Positions 18,896 through 30,273 of a stretch of 38,560 nucleotides of DNA are shown piece after piece. A model generated the notes under the pieces. It saw only the letters and a program-made list of their open reading frames with translations, ran no database searches and was not told the origin of the DNA. A program made the position numbers and the translations under genes. The stretch covers positions 1 to 38,560 of the forward strand of contig JAFZFQ010000048.1 in assembly GCA_017555825.1 (NCBI GenBank). Reading direction: 5' to 3'. The DNA comes from Bacteroidaceae bacterium. GTDB lineage: Bacteria; Bacteroidota; Bacteroidia; Bacteroidales; Barnesiellaceae_A. Each line of letters opens with the position of its first letter. Within the stretch, counting starts at the first letter, position 1.

Positions 18896-19894
18896 TTATC
18901 GGGCGTTGTAGTACGACTTTTGAAACATATCCATGTAAGGAGTCCTATCGTTTACCAACTCCTCGACACTCACATGCTCCTCTTCCATGTAGCGTTGCAC
19001 GATGCGCCAACCTACCCATCTACCCACTCTTGCAGGCGAGTCTTGTGTGAGTGTGGCTGTGAACGGTCCGGGATAGATATACTTGTTGATTGTCATGCGG
19101 TCGTGTGTAAAGAGGTGACATTGCTCTACAATCTTGTTCCATATCTCCTCTTCATATTGCATGCACCAAGCCTCTTGCTCGGGTGTGTAGCGCAACACGG
19201 TAGTTACCGTTGCATCGTCGAGCACACCGGCCAACACATGCGCAACTATACCCTCATATACCATCACTTCGAGCAGATTGCCCTTGGGTGCCGGTATCAT
19301 ATTGCGCACCATCACCTCGCCCACATCGGGTAGCAAGCACTCGCAACTGTGCAGTGGCATTTCATAGATTTTATAACGCGTTTCATACAACTCATAATCG
19401 GCACCCAAATAACAATCGAGCGACACCGATATAAGCGAGTCTACCGCCACCACAGGTATCTTCAAGCCCGATATATGCGATTGGAAAATATAATCTTTGC
19501 CATCGGGAAAGAGTTTTTTGTAACGCGCCAACATCTGGGCCAGCGACGCCTCTATATCGCTCATATCGGAGTACATGCATTGTGTATCTTCATACAATTT
19601 CTTCACATTCGATATTTCCATGTATCGAGTCAGGCTCTCATAGAAATAGGGAGCTCCAAGAAATCGCATCAAATGCAGGTTATAGATAGTCCAGAAATCG
19701 CCCGCTTGCTCTTCCAAGGCTTGACGCTGCAACGAGTCGGGCTCGTTGACATAGTTATAGACAAGCGAGTCGAATCGTGTCACGTGCACAGGCTCTGCCC
19801 TACCGACCTTGACATGATGATAATCCGACACGCCACACGATGCCAGCAACAACACAGCCAACACAAAGGCCGATACAATATGCTTTACATTCAT
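18896..19894 (-). CDS. GldB-like lipoprotein
   Basis: This 332-residue lipoprotein has the lipobox LLLASC with acylated C20, so it should be membrane-anchored in the periplasm. The body matches the GldB family named from gliding Flavobacteria, including the C-terminal patterns TINKYIYPGPFTATLTQDSP and ARVGRWVGWRIVQRYMEE. GldB is widespread in non-gliding Bacteroidales, where its role is not clear; its presence alone does not show motility. It heads a gldB-aroE-lysR transcript, and a promoter candidate lies about 70 bases upstream (19995 to 19965). Confidence 0.85.
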   Translation of the reverse strand: MNVKHIVSAFVLAVLLLASCGVSDYHHVKVGRAEPVHVTRFDSLVYNYVNEPDSLQRQALEEQAGDFWTIYNLHLMRFLGAPYFYESLTRYMEISNVKKLYEDTQCMYSDMSDIEASLAQMLARYKKLFPDGKDYIFQSHISGLKIPVVAVDSLISVSLDCYLGADYELYETRYKIYEMPLHSCECLLPDVGEVMVRNMIPAPKGNLLEVMVYEGIVAHVLAGVLDDATVTTVLRYTPEQEAWCMQYEEEIWNKIVEQCHLFTHDRMTINKYIYPGPFTATLTQDSPARVGRWVGWRIVQRYMEEEHVSVEELVNDRTPYMDMFQKSYYNAR

Positions 19895-24132: not shown

Positions 24133-24171
24133 GCGGATGCATTCACACAGCAGAATGTATCCGCATTTTTT
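24133..24171 (+). terminator. Terminator after dnaA
   Basis: GCGGATGCATTC (24133-24144) pairs with GAATGTATCCGC (24153-24164, one G-T pair) and is followed by A and six Ts. It is a textbook intrinsic terminator 24 bases after the dnaA stop. Confidence 0.88.
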
Positions 24172-24190: not shown

Positions 24191-24222
24191 CTTGCACTAC
24201 AGCCTTTTCGATAGTACATTTG
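24191..24222 (+). promoter_or_regulatory. Promoter of the radical SAM operon
   Basis: CTTG (24191-24194), a 20-bp spacer and TACATTTG (24215-24222) fit the Bacteroidota consensus with one mismatch in the -33 box. The predicted start near 24229 supports the radical SAM ATG at 24255 rather than an earlier in-frame TTG at 24192. Confidence 0.6.
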
Positions 24223-24254
24223 CACCGATAACTAACATCAATAAAGGCACACAC

Positions 24255-25097
24255 ATGACATCCTCAACCGGCACACATACAGCACCCATCATGGGCATTA
24301 GCCGCCACCGTCTTTCGTCCGATGGTCGAGGCGTCACCACCCTCGTGGGCCTACATGGCTGTCCGCTTCATTGCCACTATTGCCTCAACGACAAGTGCCA
24401 CGAGCCCGCAGGCATAAGGCACATGATGTCGGCACAAAAGCTTTACGATACAGTGTGTTGCGACAATATATACTTCTGCGCCACAGGCGGAGGCATCACC
24501 TTTGGTGGTGGCGAACCGGCATTGCACAGCGACTTTATAGAGGAGTTTGCCCACCTCAACAAGCAAGGCTGGAACATCACATTAGAGACCTCGCTCAACG
24601 TTCCTGCTCACCACATAGCACAGCTACTACCGGTTGTCGACGACTATATCATCGACATCAAGAGCCTCAACCCTACTATATACCGCACATACACAGGAGT
24701 ATCTATCGAACCACTCTTGAGCAACCTCACCCACCTCATAGAGCAAGGCAAAGCACCACACATCACCGTGCGCACACCCCTCATACCGGGCTACAACACC
24801 ACACAAGATGTAGAGGAGAGCACCGAAAAGCTGAGAGCGATGGGTATCACCCGCATCGACAACTTCACCTACCATACCCATCCTACACAGCGCACCAAGC
24901 CCGACGGCAAACAAGGCAAGAGCACTTGCAACGTACTCAAGAAGATACGCACCATCATTGCCGATGCCAACCACATTGCCTACACACCCACTCCCTGCAC
25001 GCACTCCTCGTGTACAACGGGCAACTGCCCCATGTGCGAGCAAGAATTGGCATGGCTCACCAACCGGATTGCAACATTACAAAACCCCATATTATAA
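24255..25097 (+). CDS. Radical SAM protein, glycyl-radical-enzyme-activase-like
   Basis: This 280-residue radical SAM enzyme has the cluster-binding motif C36-PLH-C40-HY-C43, followed by the SAM-contacting GGGEP motif at 84-88 (TGGGITFGGGEPALHSDF). Its pattern resembles pyruvate formate-lyase activating enzymes and their uncharacterised relatives (DDYIIDIKSLNPTIYRTYTG, VRTPLIPGYNTT). The C-terminus carries four extra cysteines (C248, C253, C258, C261), a likely site for zinc or a second iron-sulfur cluster. No glycyl-radical enzyme is encoded nearby, so activase function is not supported by context. It is followed after 18 bp by a small unknown gene and then a TonB-dependent receptor. The start at 24255 is chosen from the promoter position. 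Confidence 0.82.
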   Translation: MTSSTGTHTAPIMGISRHRLSSDGRGVTTLVGLHGCPLHCHYCLNDKCHEPAGIRHMMSAQKLYDTVCCDNIYFCATGGGITFGGGEPALHSDFIEEFAHLNKQGWNITLETSLNVPAHHIAQLLPVVDDYIIDIKSLNPTIYRTYTGVSIEPLLSNLTHLIEQGKAPHITVRTPLIPGYNTTQDVEESTEKLRAMGITRIDNFTYHTHPTQRTKPDGKQGKSTCNVLKKIRTIIADANHIAYTPTPCTHSSCTTGNCPMCEQELAWLTNRIATLQNPIL

Positions 25098-25115
25098 CCT
25101 CTTAAACAACCCACT

Positions 25116-25340
25116 ATGTTGATAGACGACCTTGACAAACTCATGAACGAAATGGGCGCAAAGCAACAAGGCATGCGCCACATCGACCCTTCAATACACC
25201 ACACTACAGGCCTTATACCCGAGTGCGACGATACACCCACCACACCCATCGAGCCCTGTACAGGACTCATCAACGAGTTCAACGCATTGGTGGGCGACAT
25301 TTCTATACCCGAAGACAACGACACCGAACAACAGCAGTAA
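25116..25340 (+). CDS. Small acidic protein of unknown function between radical SAM and receptor genes
   Basis: This 74-residue protein (MLIDDLDKLMNEMG...) is not recognised. It has no signal peptide or membrane segment and is acidic, rich in D, E and T, with two cysteines. There is a weak internal echo: TTGLIPEC and PCTGLINEF. Spacing argues that it is real: it starts 18 bp after the radical SAM stop and ends three bases before the receptor start, so translation is probably coupled. Possible roles include a modified peptide substrate or a partner of the radical SAM protein; neither is shown by the sequence. Confidence 0.6.
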   Translation: MLIDDLDKLMNEMGAKQQGMRHIDPSIHHTTGLIPECDDTPTTPIEPCTGLINEFNALVGDISIPEDNDTEQQQ

Positions 25341-25343
25341 TAT

Positions 25344-27338
25344 ATGAAACGCCTATTCCTCAGCCTCTACTTTGTCTCCACCCTATTGCTATCGCTCGCC
25401 GGTATCACCGTCGAGAGCGATACCATAGCGCACACCCTCGACGAAGTGTCGGTTGTGAGTTTCTATAGGGTCAATCTGCGCACAGGCACAACCCTCTCGC
25501 GCGACGATATCACGATACAAAACAAGGGACAAGAACCCTCGTTCATATTGGCCCGCATGCCATCGATTTTTGCCTACAGCGACACAGGCAACGAGTATGG
25601 CTACTCCTACTTCCGCATGCGAGGCATGGATCAGACTCGCATCAACATCACCCTCGACGGCATGCCACTCAACGACGGCGAGGACATGGGGGTATACTTC
25701 TCCAACTTCCCCGACCTGCTATCGAGCATGCACTCTATCAAGGTCGAGAACGGAGCCAGCATTGCCAACAATGGCGCTGCGGGCTATGCCGGCAGTATCA
25801 ACTTTGAATCTATCAACCTCGACCGCGACACCACATCGAGTGCCTACGCCGGTTATGGCAGCTTCAACACTCTCAAGGTGGGAGCCGAGTACAATACCGG
25901 TCGCAAAGGCAACTTTGCCGGACACTTCAAGATCACTCACCAGCAGAGCGATGGCTTCCGCGAGCACGCCTACAACAACGCTCAGTCGGCTTTTGTCAAG
26001 TTGGGATGGTATATCGACAAGCATCACAAGCTCGACCTGCTCAGCTTTGTAGGTCAGTCGCGCAACGGCATGGCTTGGATAGGTAGCACCATAGACGAGC
26101 TACAACAAAACCCAGCCACCAACGGCTGCCAAGAGAGCGAGACCGACCACTACATACAGAATATCAACAAGTTGCAGTATCAAGGTTTCTTGAGCGACAA
26201 CATTACCCTCACAGCAGCAACCTACTACAACTATGCCGACGGCTACTACACATTCGACCTCGACAACTACATGCTCAAGGTATACGACCCGGCATGGCAA
26301 CCCACGGGCGAGATAGACCGCTACGACCAACGTTTCCACTACTTCGGAGGCAACGCAGCGGCCAAGTTCTACCTCAACCCCTTTGAACTCACTGCCGGCA
26401 TCAACGCATCGGCATTCATCCGCCGTCACATAGGCAGCAACAACCTGCAAGAGGCTCTCTTGTGGGACAACACCGGATATAAAAACGACATAAGCACCTT
26501 TATCAAAGGCTCATACACGCACCGACAACTCACCATCGGAGCCAACATCCAATATCGTCACGCTCAATTTGATTATCGTGGCGACACACCCTTCGAACGC
26601 ATCAATTGGGATTTTATCAATTGGTCGGCCAACGCACGCTGGCAGTTTGACAACCGCCACGCCATCTATGCAAGCGCCACACAAACTCACCGCGAGCCCA
26701 CACGTAGCGACATGTTTGGCGGTGACGAAAACTTCCACACACTATACACTACACAGGCCGAGAGTGTTATCGACTACGAGATAGGCTACAATATCACGTT
26801 GAGCAACTTCACCACCAACCTCAACCTCTACTATATGGACTTTGCCAACGAGCTTATTCTCAACGGTGCTATGGGCACAAACGGCCTGCCCATACACGTC
26901 AATGCAGCGCAAAGCTACCGCACAGGTATCGAGCTCTCACTACAATACTACCCCATCACAGGCTTGCGTCTTGCCAACAACACAAGCTACTCTATCAACC
27001 GTGTAGAGCACGATGGCGAAATCCTCACCCATATACTCAGCCCCTCGTGGATTGTCAATCAAGAGATTGGCTATAGTATTGCAGGATTTGACATCGACCT
27101 CACCATGCGCTACCGCAGCGACATGTACTTCGACCTCACCAATCGCTATAGCATTGCGCCATCGCTACGATTTAACGCCTCGGTAGCCTACACCTACCGC
27201 AACATCACAGCCGGCATCAGTGTCAACAACATCTTCAACGAGCGTAGCTACTCCAACGGCATGATGGGTGCTACAGGCCCGCTATACTTCATCGACTCTC
27301 CACGCAACTGCTGGTGCGATGTGAGAGTTAAATTTTAA
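25344..27338 (+). CDS. TonB-dependent outer-membrane receptor
   Basis: This 664-residue receptor imports a ligand across the outer membrane using TonB energy. The signal peptide spans residues about 1-20 (MKRLFLSLYFVSTLLLSLAG). It is followed by a likely TonB box (HTLDEVSVVSF, about 30-40), a plug domain (about 45-150: FRMRGMDQTRINITLDGMPL, then IKVENGASIANNGAAGYAG) and a 22-strand-type barrel ending in VRVKF with terminal Phe. There is no N-terminal carboxypeptidase-like extension and no adjacent SusD gene, so it is not a SusC-type glycan importer. Size and plug resemble metal-chelate or cobalamin receptors, but the ligand cannot be assigned. It is the last gene of the radical SAM operon. 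Confidence 0.92.
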   Translation: MKRLFLSLYFVSTLLLSLAGITVESDTIAHTLDEVSVVSFYRVNLRTGTTLSRDDITIQNKGQEPSFILARMPSIFAYSDTGNEYGYSYFRMRGMDQTRINITLDGMPLNDGEDMGVYFSNFPDLLSSMHSIKVENGASIANNGAAGYAGSINFESINLDRDTTSSAYAGYGSFNTLKVGAEYNTGRKGNFAGHFKITHQQSDGFREHAYNNAQSAFVKLGWYIDKHHKLDLLSFVGQSRNGMAWIGSTIDELQQNPATNGCQESETDHYIQNINKLQYQGFLSDNITLTAATYYNYADGYYTFDLDNYMLKVYDPAWQPTGEIDRYDQRFHYFGGNAAAKFYLNPFELTAGINASAFIRRHIGSNNLQEALLWDNTGYKNDISTFIKGSYTHRQLTIGANIQYRHAQFDYRGDTPFERINWDFINWSANARWQFDNRHAIYASATQTHREPTRSDMFGGDENFHTLYTTQAESVIDYEIGYNITLSNFTTNLNLYYMDFANELILNGAMGTNGLPIHVNAAQSYRTGIELSLQYYPITGLRLANNTSYSINRVEHDGEILTHILSPSWIVNQEIGYSIAGFDIDLTMRYRSDMYFDLTNRYSIAPSLRFNASVAYTYRNITAGISVNNIFNERSYSNGMMGATGPLYFIDSPRNCWCDVRVKF

Positions 27339-27475: not shown

Positions 27476-28033
27476 ATGAGGCGAATTCTATCACTTATGC
27501 TCATCGTTACATGTAGCATGGGCATCGCATTGGCACAAGAAACATCGACCAACAACATCGAAAAAACCCACACTGCTCGTCGGGGCTATCGCGGAGCTGT
27601 CGAATTGGCTCCTTTTACGCTCTCAACGTGCGGCCCCACTCTCAACCTTAGCACCACACATGGCTACCAGTTCAGTCACAACTTCTTCCTCGGTGGTGGT
27701 GTGGCCTACTATGCCTACCCATTCAGTTATTATGGCGAAACCGACGTACCCCTCTATATTGCCATCCAGAGCAACATTGGCGAGAATTTGGCTCAATTCA
27801 CCTATGGTGGTCGCTTGGGTATGATACTATACTCCAAGCACGAATATATGAATCAAGAGACATATTTGAATGAGGTTCACGAGGGATTTGGCGGATTGTA
27901 TTTCAACTTCAACATCGGTTTGCGCCTGGGATTTACACCCCAATATGCCATGACAATCAAGCCACAATTTGATATTATATTAGGCAGATTTCCATGCCTC
28001 AACATAGGCATCGGATTTGGCTTCGAGTTCTAA
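27476..28033 (+). CDS. Small outer-membrane beta-barrel-like protein, paralogue A
   Basis: This 185-residue secreted protein has a signal peptide (residues 1-20, LMLIVTCSMGIALAQ). The mature part shares a family pattern with the next three genes: RRGYRG near 35-40, LSTTHGYQFSHNFFLGGG near 58-75, QFTYGGRLG near 106-114, LYFNFNIGLRLGF, and a final GIGFGFEF ending in Phe, as in BAM-inserted barrels. I infer an eight-stranded or similar small outer-membrane barrel; function is unknown. It has its own candidate promoter and is separated from paralogue B by 207 bases. Confidence 0.75.
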   Translation: MRRILSLMLIVTCSMGIALAQETSTNNIEKTHTARRGYRGAVELAPFTLSTCGPTLNLSTTHGYQFSHNFFLGGGVAYYAYPFSYYGETDVPLYIAIQSNIGENLAQFTYGGRLGMILYSKHEYMNQETYLNEVHEGFGGLYFNFNIGLRLGFTPQYAMTIKPQFDIILGRFPCLNIGIGFGFEF

Positions 28034-28157
28034 CACTCTCGCACAGCACCCTATTCAACCAAACAGAGCAATAGGCAACCAATTTATCAAAAGCACAAGA
28101 TAAAAGATTGAAAATTTCACATCAATACAGCAAAACAAAAACTTTTTACAACAAAAG

Positions 28158-28189
28158 TTTGTCGTTTTAAAAATCATTTTGTTTATTTG
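28158..28189 (+). promoter_or_regulatory. Promoter of the three-gene barrel operon
   Basis: TTTG (28158-28161), a 20-bp spacer and TTTATTTG (28182-28189) match the consensus except for one base in the -7 box. The box overlaps an upstream in-frame start candidate (28187), so the real start of the next gene must be the ATG at 28241. Confidence 0.6.
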
Positions 28190-28240
28190 CAACCAATAAA
28201 CAGAATTAAACAGATTTTTTATAACCTAAATCAAACATCA

Positions 28241-28957
28241 ATGAAAAAAATTCTATCAATAGTGCTTTTAATGCTATGTTTTGCCACTATTACCTATGCT
28301 CGTGAAGTTGTAACATTCAAAGACGGCTCGGTTGTCAAAGGCAAGATTTCCGAGTTCGTTCCGGGTGGTAACATCAGCATCATTACCGAAGATGGCAATA
28401 CTCTCGTATTCAGCACCATGGATATAGTAAAGATTGACACCGACCGTGAGAACGGCGATGGCGAGTATCTGTTGCTCTCTTCATACTACGACATGTACCC
28501 CAAGAAAAACCTGGCCAAGAAGGGCTACCGAGGCTTTGCCACTGTCGACCCCGTTGCGCTCACTTCCTATGGCTATTCTTTGGGTCTATACACCACTCAC
28601 GGATACCAATTCGACCACAACATCTTCTTGGGTGGTGGTATAGGTATACTCTACACCTGGCGCGATAGCGGATTGGCAATACCTATATATCTCGAATGCA
28701 AGAACAACGTAGGTAGAGGTTTCTTCCAGTTTACTTGGGGTGGTCGTTTGGGATATGCCATCATCAACGACGACTACAAAGATCGCTACATCGCAAGCTC
28801 AAGATCGATCGACGGCTCTATATACCTCAATGGATATGTAGGTTGTCGCATCCCTATTTCCGAACAATTTGCTATTAACATCACACCTCAAGTCGAGGTT
28901 TATATAGGCGAACCTATCAACCTCAACTTGGGTGTAGGATTGGGATTTGAATTCTAA
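28241..28957 (+). CDS. Small beta-barrel protein with extra N-terminal module, paralogue B
   Basis: This 238-residue secreted protein has a signal peptide (residues 1-20, MKKILSIVLLMLCFATITYA). Next comes a module of about 45 residues (about 21-65: VTFKDGSVVKGKISEFVPGG, ending STMDIVKI), then the barrel region shared with paralogues A, C and D (KKGYRG, YTTHGYQFDHNIFLGGGIG, QFTWGGRLG, final GLGFEF). The module resembles short beta-stranded repeats found in other Bacteroidota surface proteins; its job is unknown. It is the first gene of a tight B-C-D operon; C starts 17 bp after its stop. Confidence 0.75.
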   Translation: MKKILSIVLLMLCFATITYAREVVTFKDGSVVKGKISEFVPGGNISIITEDGNTLVFSTMDIVKIDTDRENGDGEYLLLSSYYDMYPKKNLAKKGYRGFATVDPVALTSYGYSLGLYTTHGYQFDHNIFLGGGIGILYTWRDSGLAIPIYLECKNNVGRGFFQFTWGGRLGYAIINDDYKDRYIASSRSIDGSIYLNGYVGCRIPISEQFAINITPQVEVYIGEPINLNLGVGLGFEF

Positions 28958-28974
28958 TCATAACACACATCATC

Positions 28975-29682
28975 ATGAAAAAGAGTTTATTTGCTTTATT
29001 GTTTATTGTAGGCACTGTATTTTCTTCTTTGGCCTACAGCACAGTCTATCTCAAAAACGGCAGTTCCATCAATGGAGAGATACTCGAATACACACCCGAG
29101 CAAAACATCTCATTGAGAACCGCCGACGGCAGTGTATGGGTATTCAATGCAAGCGAGATAGTAAGAATACAGAACAACCAGACCCCGGCAGTCAACAATA
29201 CCACCTCGCGCTTCACAGCTTCCACAGGCTATCGCGGATTCGTTGACGTCATGTTGCTCAACCTCTCGTGGCAAAATGGACTTGCCTTTAACCTCACCAC
29301 ATCGCATGGTTACCAATTCACCCACCACGCCTATTTAGGCGGTGGTATCGGTGTCGACTTGAGCTACGATACCGGCAAGAATCTCATCATTCCCGTTTTT
29401 ACCGAGTTCCGTGGCAATGTAGGTCAAAATCAACTTCAATTTACCTATGGAGCCCGCTTGGGTGTTGCCTTTGGTACAGGAAACATTTCATACTACGACC
29501 CGATAAGCGAAACATATATCTATGCCTATGAGTCGGGAGCAGGAGTATACACATGTGCCAGCATAGGTCTACGCATAGCCTACAGCCCCAACTTTGCCGT
29601 GAATATCTCACCCGAGGCTTCTTTGACTTTGGGCACGTTTTCCAACATCAGCGCAGGCTTCCGCTTAGGATTTGAATTCTGA
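28975..29682 (+). CDS. Small beta-barrel protein with extra N-terminal module, paralogue C
   Basis: This 235-residue secreted protein has a signal peptide (residues 1-22). It has the same two-part build as paralogue B: an N-terminal module (VYLKNGSSINGEILEYTPEQ, ending NASEIVRI, about 23-67) and the shared barrel region (STGYRGFVD, TTSHGYQFTHHAYLGGGIG, QFTYGARLG, final RLGFEF). B and C share the module closely, which points to duplication of one ancestor. Function is unknown; outer-membrane location is inferred from the terminal Phe and the aromatic pattern. Confidence 0.75.
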   Translation: MKKSLFALLFIVGTVFSSLAYSTVYLKNGSSINGEILEYTPEQNISLRTADGSVWVFNASEIVRIQNNQTPAVNNTTSRFTASTGYRGFVDVMLLNLSWQNGLAFNLTTSHGYQFTHHAYLGGGIGVDLSYDTGKNLIIPVFTEFRGNVGQNQLQFTYGARLGVAFGTGNISYYDPISETYIYAYESGAGVYTCASIGLRIAYSPNFAVNISPEASLTLGTFSNISAGFRLGFEF

Positions 29683-29694
29683 CAATAGACCCGT

Positions 29695-30273
29695 ATGCGA
29701 CACATCATAGCCACCCTACTCATATTTTGCTGCACTACCTTGGCAATGGCTCGCCAAGGCTACAGCCCCGCAACCGAAGCTACACCCCCTACGGGTGAAG
29801 TTATCAACAAGCACATGGCTGCACGTGGCTACCGCGGATTTGTCAATTATACACCGCTCACATTCACATTTGTCAACCAAGGTATCGCCGGCAACATAAG
29901 CACCACACACGGCTACCAGCTCAACCACAACCACTTTGTAGGATTGGGCGCAGGCTTTCACATCAACCTTGGCGACAAAGGCTTGGGCGTGGCAATACCT
30001 GTATATGCCGCATACAAGGGCAACCTTGGACAACAGCTCGCACAGTTCACCTATGGTGCACGCATCGGCGCTGCCTATGCCGACTATGGCAATATAGCCA
30101 ACGAGCCCAGCACACACAGTGGCATCACCACCCTGGCATACTTCAATGCAAGTATAGGTCTACGCCTGGGCATAGCGCGCTATTTTGCCATCAACATCAC
30201 ACCCGAGATCGATGTTTTCACCGGTCAATACAGCATTATAGGCGCGGGCCTGCGATTGGGTATAGAATTTTGA
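29695..30273 (+). CDS. Small outer-membrane beta-barrel-like protein, paralogue D
   Basis: This 192-residue secreted protein has a signal peptide (residues 1-19, MRHIIATLLIFCCTTLAMA). It lacks the module of B and C and resembles A in build: AARGYRGFVNYTPL, ISTTHGYQLNHNHFVGLG, QFTYGARIG, FNASIGLRLGI and a final RLGIEF. It starts 12 bp after paralogue C and is the last gene of the B-C-D operon, which ends at a strong terminator. Function is unknown. Confidence 0.75.
   Translation: MRHIIATLLIFCCTTLAMARQGYSPATEATPPTGEVINKHMAARGYRGFVNYTPLTFTFVNQGIAGNISTTHGYQLNHNHFVGLGAGFHINLGDKGLGVAIPVYAAYKGNLGQQLAQFTYGARIGAAYADYGNIANEPSTHSGITTLAYFNASIGLRLGIARYFAINITPEIDVFTGQYSIIGAGLRLGIEF

Follow-up and report, generated by a model that had tools for sequence, protein, structure and literature searches.

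What does a radical SAM (rSAM) enzyme of the activase type do at a locus that offers it no glycyl-radical enzyme to activate? The question is raised by an operon in the window, by which is meant the whole stretch of 38,560 nucleotides analysed here, from a Bacteroidaceae MAG that is 91.6% complete. The enzyme is encoded together with a protein of only 74 residues and a TonB-dependent receptor. Our answer, to which we give a probability of about 0.55, is that the enzyme and the small protein are a diverged, fused form of an apparently undescribed protein-modification system of the Bacteroidales, and that the small protein is what is modified.

The operon and its conservation within the genus

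The genes for the rSAM enzyme, the small protein and the receptor lie on one strand, 3' of dnaA, separated by 18 and 3 bp, as a preliminary description had placed them. The left edge given there, 24191, is indeed the first TTG of the longest rSAM frame, but the likely start is the ATG at 24255, which gives a protein of 280 aa. This start is preferred on sequence grounds because a promoter (24192-24222), situated between the two candidates, and the hairpin of dnaA (24133-24164) lie upstream of it. The promoter call uses what we take to be the Bacteroidetes consensus. The features are as follows.

24133..24170, + strand: terminator-like hairpin of dnaA, stem 24133-24164, GCGGATGCATTC...GAATGTATCCGC followed by a T-run; read from sequence
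24192..24222, + strand: Bacteroidetes-type promoter, TTG-N20-TACATTTG; TAC[AT]TTTG lies 5' of the rSAM gene in 6/6 congeners with the operon
24255..25097, + strand: radical SAM enzyme, 280 aa, PFL-AE fold, with a fused C-terminal five-Cys domain (PF04055; AF2; VIA-align)
24360..24383, + strand: CPLHCHYC, the CxxxCxxC cluster motif; its three Cys are invariant in 43 relatives
24909..25085, + strand: five-Cys domain (GK..C..LK..R..IA..N.I...C....C....C..CE.E), separable in other Bacteroidales
25116..25340, + strand: acidic soluble protein of 74 aa, the proposed substrate; present exactly in the six rSAM-bearing congeners, under purifying selection, without a TM segment
25287..25313, + strand: LVGDISIPE, the proposed modification site (Gly60); motif enriched in partner tails, L58 and G60 unchanged in all six orthologues
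25344..27338, + strand: TonB-dependent receptor (PF00593, PF07715), co-transcribed but not functionally tied; occurs without the rSAM and small genes in G002 and G005

Nine genomes of the genus, that of the window included, were compared. The rSAM gene is present in six, the other five enzymes being 56-69% identical to that of the window, and the order dnaA, rSAM, small gene, receptor is the same in all six. The promoter and stem-loop recur upstream of rSAM in the other five congeners, and this conserved arrangement, with its promoter element kept throughout, supports the earlier proposal of a single transcript. Presence of the small gene agrees with that of rSAM in 9/9 genomes (Fisher P 0.012), and it was not found in the three that lack the enzyme.

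The five orthologues of the small protein, all at the same place, have 61, 61, 50, 55 and 32% identity to it. In pairwise comparisons of four of them with the window gene, differences are greatest at third codon positions and NG86 values give a dN of about 0.3-0.5, a dS above 1.2 and a dN/dS of about 0.1-0.3. The frame is therefore translated and under purifying selection, and represents a genuine gene. The invariant core among the six orthologues comprises MLI.D..K...E and L-[VI]-G-[DE]. Cysteine had been put forward as the defining feature of the protein, but both of its Cys vary among the six, and as a key feature they were rejected. Pfam yields no match at E<=1, and no TM or signal segment was found.

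The receptor has plug (PF07715) and beta-barrel (PF00593) domains above the Pfam cut-offs and occurs in eight of the nine genomes. In G002 and G005 it stands behind TetR-fabG at 76-77% identity, and these genomes have neither rSAM nor small gene. Because these two genomes keep the receptor alone, it is a neighbour by transcription and not an obligate part of the system; the idea that it was a functional component did not hold and was rejected.

Some further observations concern the surroundings. Downstream, at 27476-30273, four genes in tandem encode related small outer-membrane-like proteins with an RGYRG...TTHGYQ pattern and no Pfam match; the copy number and similarity in this array differ between congeners. 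One congener (G001; L010:9916-14048) has two extra genes after the receptor followed by a second copy of the last ~42 codons of the receptor, arranged as if inserted with a short duplication. At 18896-19894 this gut Bacteroidales MAG encodes a GldB-type gliding-motility lipoprotein (PF25594).

An activase-like enzyme with a separable five-Cys domain

The enzyme matches PF04055, and its AF2 model (pLDDT 93.6, pTM 0.90) is closest among solved structures, by VIA-align, to PFL-AE with a bound glycine-containing peptide (3cb8; Z 24.2, 202 residues, 2.5 A, 25% identity); the next family, QueE, reaches Z 17.9. No variation occurs across 43 relatives at the cluster Cys or at the RHR, GGGE and DxK positions. 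The best NCBIfam matches are activases, all below their curated cut-offs (TIGR02494, 129.5 against 174.35 bits; TIGR02493, 98.9 against 231.75). Pfam gives no SPASM match at E<=1, the C terminus being the five-Cys domain, and the ORFs between dnaA and tgt include no protease or ABC exporter. No glycyl-radical enzyme is encoded in the window, as had been remarked before, and the sole Gly_radical match in the whole 91.6% complete MAG is a 792-aa NrdD adjoined by an NrdG-like gene, names that rest on length, neighbourhood and sequence rather than on a family scan. With the PFL-AE fold on one hand and an NrdD that has its own NrdG on the other, the earlier view of an activase-like enzyme lacking a cognate partner of this class is strengthened.

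The last ~60 residues of the enzyme (219-275) form two helices separated by a Cys loop and contain five conserved Cys. Elsewhere in the Bacteroidales the enzyme is ~205 aa long and without this domain, which starts a separate neighbouring protein; almost every copy of the domain retains the five Cys. It is this separable C-terminal domain, borne elsewhere by TonB-like or lipoprotein-like partners, that reframes the window locus. A search for a known family gave none: no Pfam or NCBIfam model exceeded its cut-off in the partner proteins scanned, and PDB sequence matches were weak (best E 0.19, a ZZ zinc finger). Predicted alone, the domain has no significant fold match (best Foldseek E 5.3, VIA Z 4.0), values that show neither a new nor a known fold.

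Enzyme and domain keep close company. Of 393 Bacteroidales genomes, 15 have both and none has just one of the two; four have them fused, and the 11 with separate proteins are 11 independent cases. Among the matches listed, the domain is adjacent (<=100 bp) or fused to the enzyme in 62 of 80 named loci and lies within 2.5 kb in eight more. Seven of the remaining ten genomes have the domain elsewhere, and three are MAGs with rSAM in which no domain was detected. The named loci include Bacteroides nordii, B. ihuae, Prevotella disiens, Hoylesella saccharolytica, Palleniella, Duncaniella muris, Heminiphilus and many MAGs. In several genomes a single enzyme is accompanied by three or four domain proteins spread over different contigs, the pattern to be expected if one enzyme served several substrates. 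A survey of 345 genomes from the phylum turned up the domain in just two, both of them Bacteroidales. At least 553 candidate stretches encode a relative of the enzyme, not all of which need be orthologues. All fused enzymes fall in one group of the tree (support 99/91), which includes that of a Parabacteroides MAG (L081) and is compatible with one fusion event.

A few loci depart from this pattern. The fused rSAM-five-Cys protein of L081 (7995-8990), a second instance of such a fusion, sits on a long branch; it is extended at the C terminus by ~66 residues and lacks an LxGD motif. The system also appears in records titled Paenibacillus, Bacillota or Lachnospiraceae (L082, L117, L125, L152); the enzymes of L082 and L117 nest among those of Bacteroidales, so these titles are probably wrong. 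In L030 (genome G240) and L151, the enzyme and a stand-alone five-Cys protein of 88-92 aa are encoded 3' of a ~1250-aa protein, which in L030 has Sel1 and BspA-type LRR repeats (Pfam), a different cassette of the same enzyme.

A glycine motif in the partner tails and in the small protein

The partner proteins (110-360 aa) are mostly predicted to be membrane-anchored TonB-like proteins or lipoproteins. Their usual layout starts with the five-Cys domain, continues through a membrane or lipobox-like segment and leads into an acidic tail, behind which a TonB_C or CarboxypepD_reg domain is frequently present. From this layout we infer that the domain lies in the cytoplasm and the tail in the periplasm.

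L-x-G-[DE]-[VIP] is strongly over-represented in the tails. In 62 dereplicated tails [LMIV]xG[DE] has 75 sites, distributed over 46 of them, against 13.5 expected in shuffles, and a long form has 24 against 0.2, figures to be read with the fact that the motif classes were picked after most of the same tails had been inspected. A later tail set, which partly overlaps the first and contains near-duplicates, gave a weaker enrichment (8 sites against 2.7). Roughly one tail in four lacks the motif, as does half of the held-out set. Relative to 662 neighbouring proteins the motif rate in the tails is 8.5-fold higher for the short form and 186-fold for the long form, and no site is present in 13 control TonB linkers without the five-Cys domain. 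The glycine matters, since A, S, N or T in its place shows no enrichment in the tails. One tail (L152) has three tandem motifs (DELTGDV...P[DE]).

The small protein carries the same kind of motif, L-[VI]-G-[DE]-[IL], in six of six orthologues, even at 32% identity. Its link to the tails is suggestive, not proven, because a single LxG[DE][VIMLP] is no great rarity in sequences of this composition, with a shuffle P of about 0.02-0.07 for each orthologue; the long form in the window protein reaches P 0.004 and is kept in only three of the six. Homology between small protein and tails was sought beyond the motif and none was detected. A five-Cys protein at L102:8615-9034, adjoining two kinase-like genes, has a tail with LPGDISLDES and no obvious membrane segment and may be seen as an intermediate towards the soluble small protein of the window.

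Proposed mechanism, alternatives and relation to known systems

The system would have three parts: a short PFL-AE-like rSAM enzyme, a five-Cys docking domain and a tail rich in L-x-G-[DE]-[VI]-...-P-[DE]. Most Bacteroidales would carry domain and tail on one protein, with the domain in the cytoplasm and the tail, often closed by a TonB C-terminal domain, in the periplasm. In the genus of the window, enzyme and domain are fused, and the free 74-aa protein would take the place of the tail-like substrate. We infer that the domain joins enzyme and substrate, in trans on the substrate elsewhere and in cis on the enzyme here. PFL-AE abstracts hydrogen from the alpha carbon of a glycine in a bound peptide (PMC8124187). 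An enzyme resembling it and tied to a glycine motif would most simply act on that glycine, and the small protein is probably modified at its motif glycine, Gly60. Like PFL-AE, the enzyme would make a 5'-deoxyadenosyl radical, which would take hydrogen from the alpha carbon of Gly60 (LVGDI); this step would either start a modification of the small protein or leave a persistent glycyl radical. The enzymes of relatives would modify their TonB-like and lipoprotein partners. That the small protein could be a modified product had been raised before and gains from its being a conserved protein beside the enzyme. A broader generalization is offered tentatively, at rather less than even odds: throughout the Bacteroidales, an activase-class enzyme recruited by a detachable five-Cys domain may modify LxG[DE][VI] glycines of TonB-like transducers and lipoproteins before export, and the enzyme-domain fusion in this genus may act on a free soluble protein.

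The main rival, itself unlikely, is that the five-Cys domain is the target or the cofactor partner, being modified, cluster-loaded or an auxiliary Fe-S or Zn module, and that the LxGD tails are an unrelated sorting or interaction motif. The five Cys vary less than the tail motif does, the domain always accompanies the enzyme in the survey of 393 genomes, and the stand-alone proteins of L030 and L151 lack an LxGD tail. Against this, the domain in the genus of the window belongs to the enzyme, which would hence be its own target, and the glycine-specific motif is also found in the small protein, which has no domain. Clearly less probable is a spare-part role, in the manner of YfiD/GrcA, in which a glycyl radical, placed by the rSAM on the LVGDI glycine of the small protein, would be used by another enzyme. 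The PFL-AE fold, the glycine motif and the NrdD of the genome could be read in this way, but the small protein has no detected similarity to the Gly_radical family (PF01228), NrdD has its own NrdG, and in relatives the motif lies in predicted exported tails, often in two or three copies, and there no known enzyme would make use of a radical. The metallophore suggested in the preliminary description, a modified peptide made by the operon and imported by the receptor, is very improbable. Such a product would suit a plausible rSAM modification and the co-transcription with a receptor in six congeners, but the receptor persists without the pair in G002 and G005, the operon lacks an exporter or protease gene, signal and TM segments are missing from the acidic small protein and neither of its Cys is invariant. 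Least probable of all, and rejected, is the idea that the rSAM simply activates some glycyl-radical enzyme from another part of the genome, since the activase matches all score under their cut-offs (129.5 against 174.35 bits for TIGR02494), the only Gly_radical match is the NrdD beside an NrdG gene, and the one PFL-bearing congener (G008) has its own PflA-like gene and not this rSAM.

If the reading proposed here is correct, hundreds of Bacteroidales genomes, judged from the at least 553 candidate stretches, would have an unrecognised radical modification of envelope proteins, among them TonB-like ones that would power nutrient uptake. PFL-AE chemistry would then extend from enzyme activation to the tailoring of proteins or peptides, and the system could prove a distinct class if modification of TonB-like proteins were shown. 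The enzyme-domain fusion offers a compact two-gene unit for testing (843 + 225 bp). A search of the open-access literature found no description of the system, nor one with this gene order, in line with the earlier impression. A BAGEL4 survey of Bacteroidales RiPPs counts many rSAM-only loci, with no mention of this one in the parts consulted (PMC10352776).

Several known systems share some of these features. PflA (PDB 3C8F/3CB8) has the same CxxxCxxC motif, partial barrel and catalytic core size, but the window enzyme has no detected cognate glycyl-radical enzyme, carries the extra five-Cys domain (fused or on a partner) and falls below the family cut-offs. The spare-part protein YfiD/GrcA is also small, with a conserved glycine, and is associated with a PFL-AE-like enzyme family; here the small protein has no detected Gly_radical domain, and relatives have a repeated motif in tails that are predicted to be exported. 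Gram-negative TonB energy transducers (PF03544) resemble the many partners that end in a TonB C-terminal domain, but the N-terminal five-Cys domain and LxGD linkers of the partners are seen only with rSAM, the 13 control linkers being free of the motif. RiPP systems in general also place a gene of this size, here of 74 aa and found exactly in the six rSAM-bearing congeners, beside a modifying enzyme, but no leader-cleavage or export genes lie between dnaA and tgt. SPASM/Twitch rSAM maturases of RiPPs likewise stand beside a small conserved protein, with a short motif that is repeated in relatives; in the present system a helix-loop-helix domain with five Cys takes the place of SPASM, and the partners, instead of being short precursors, are mostly predicted membrane-anchored TonB-like proteins or lipoproteins of 110-360 aa.
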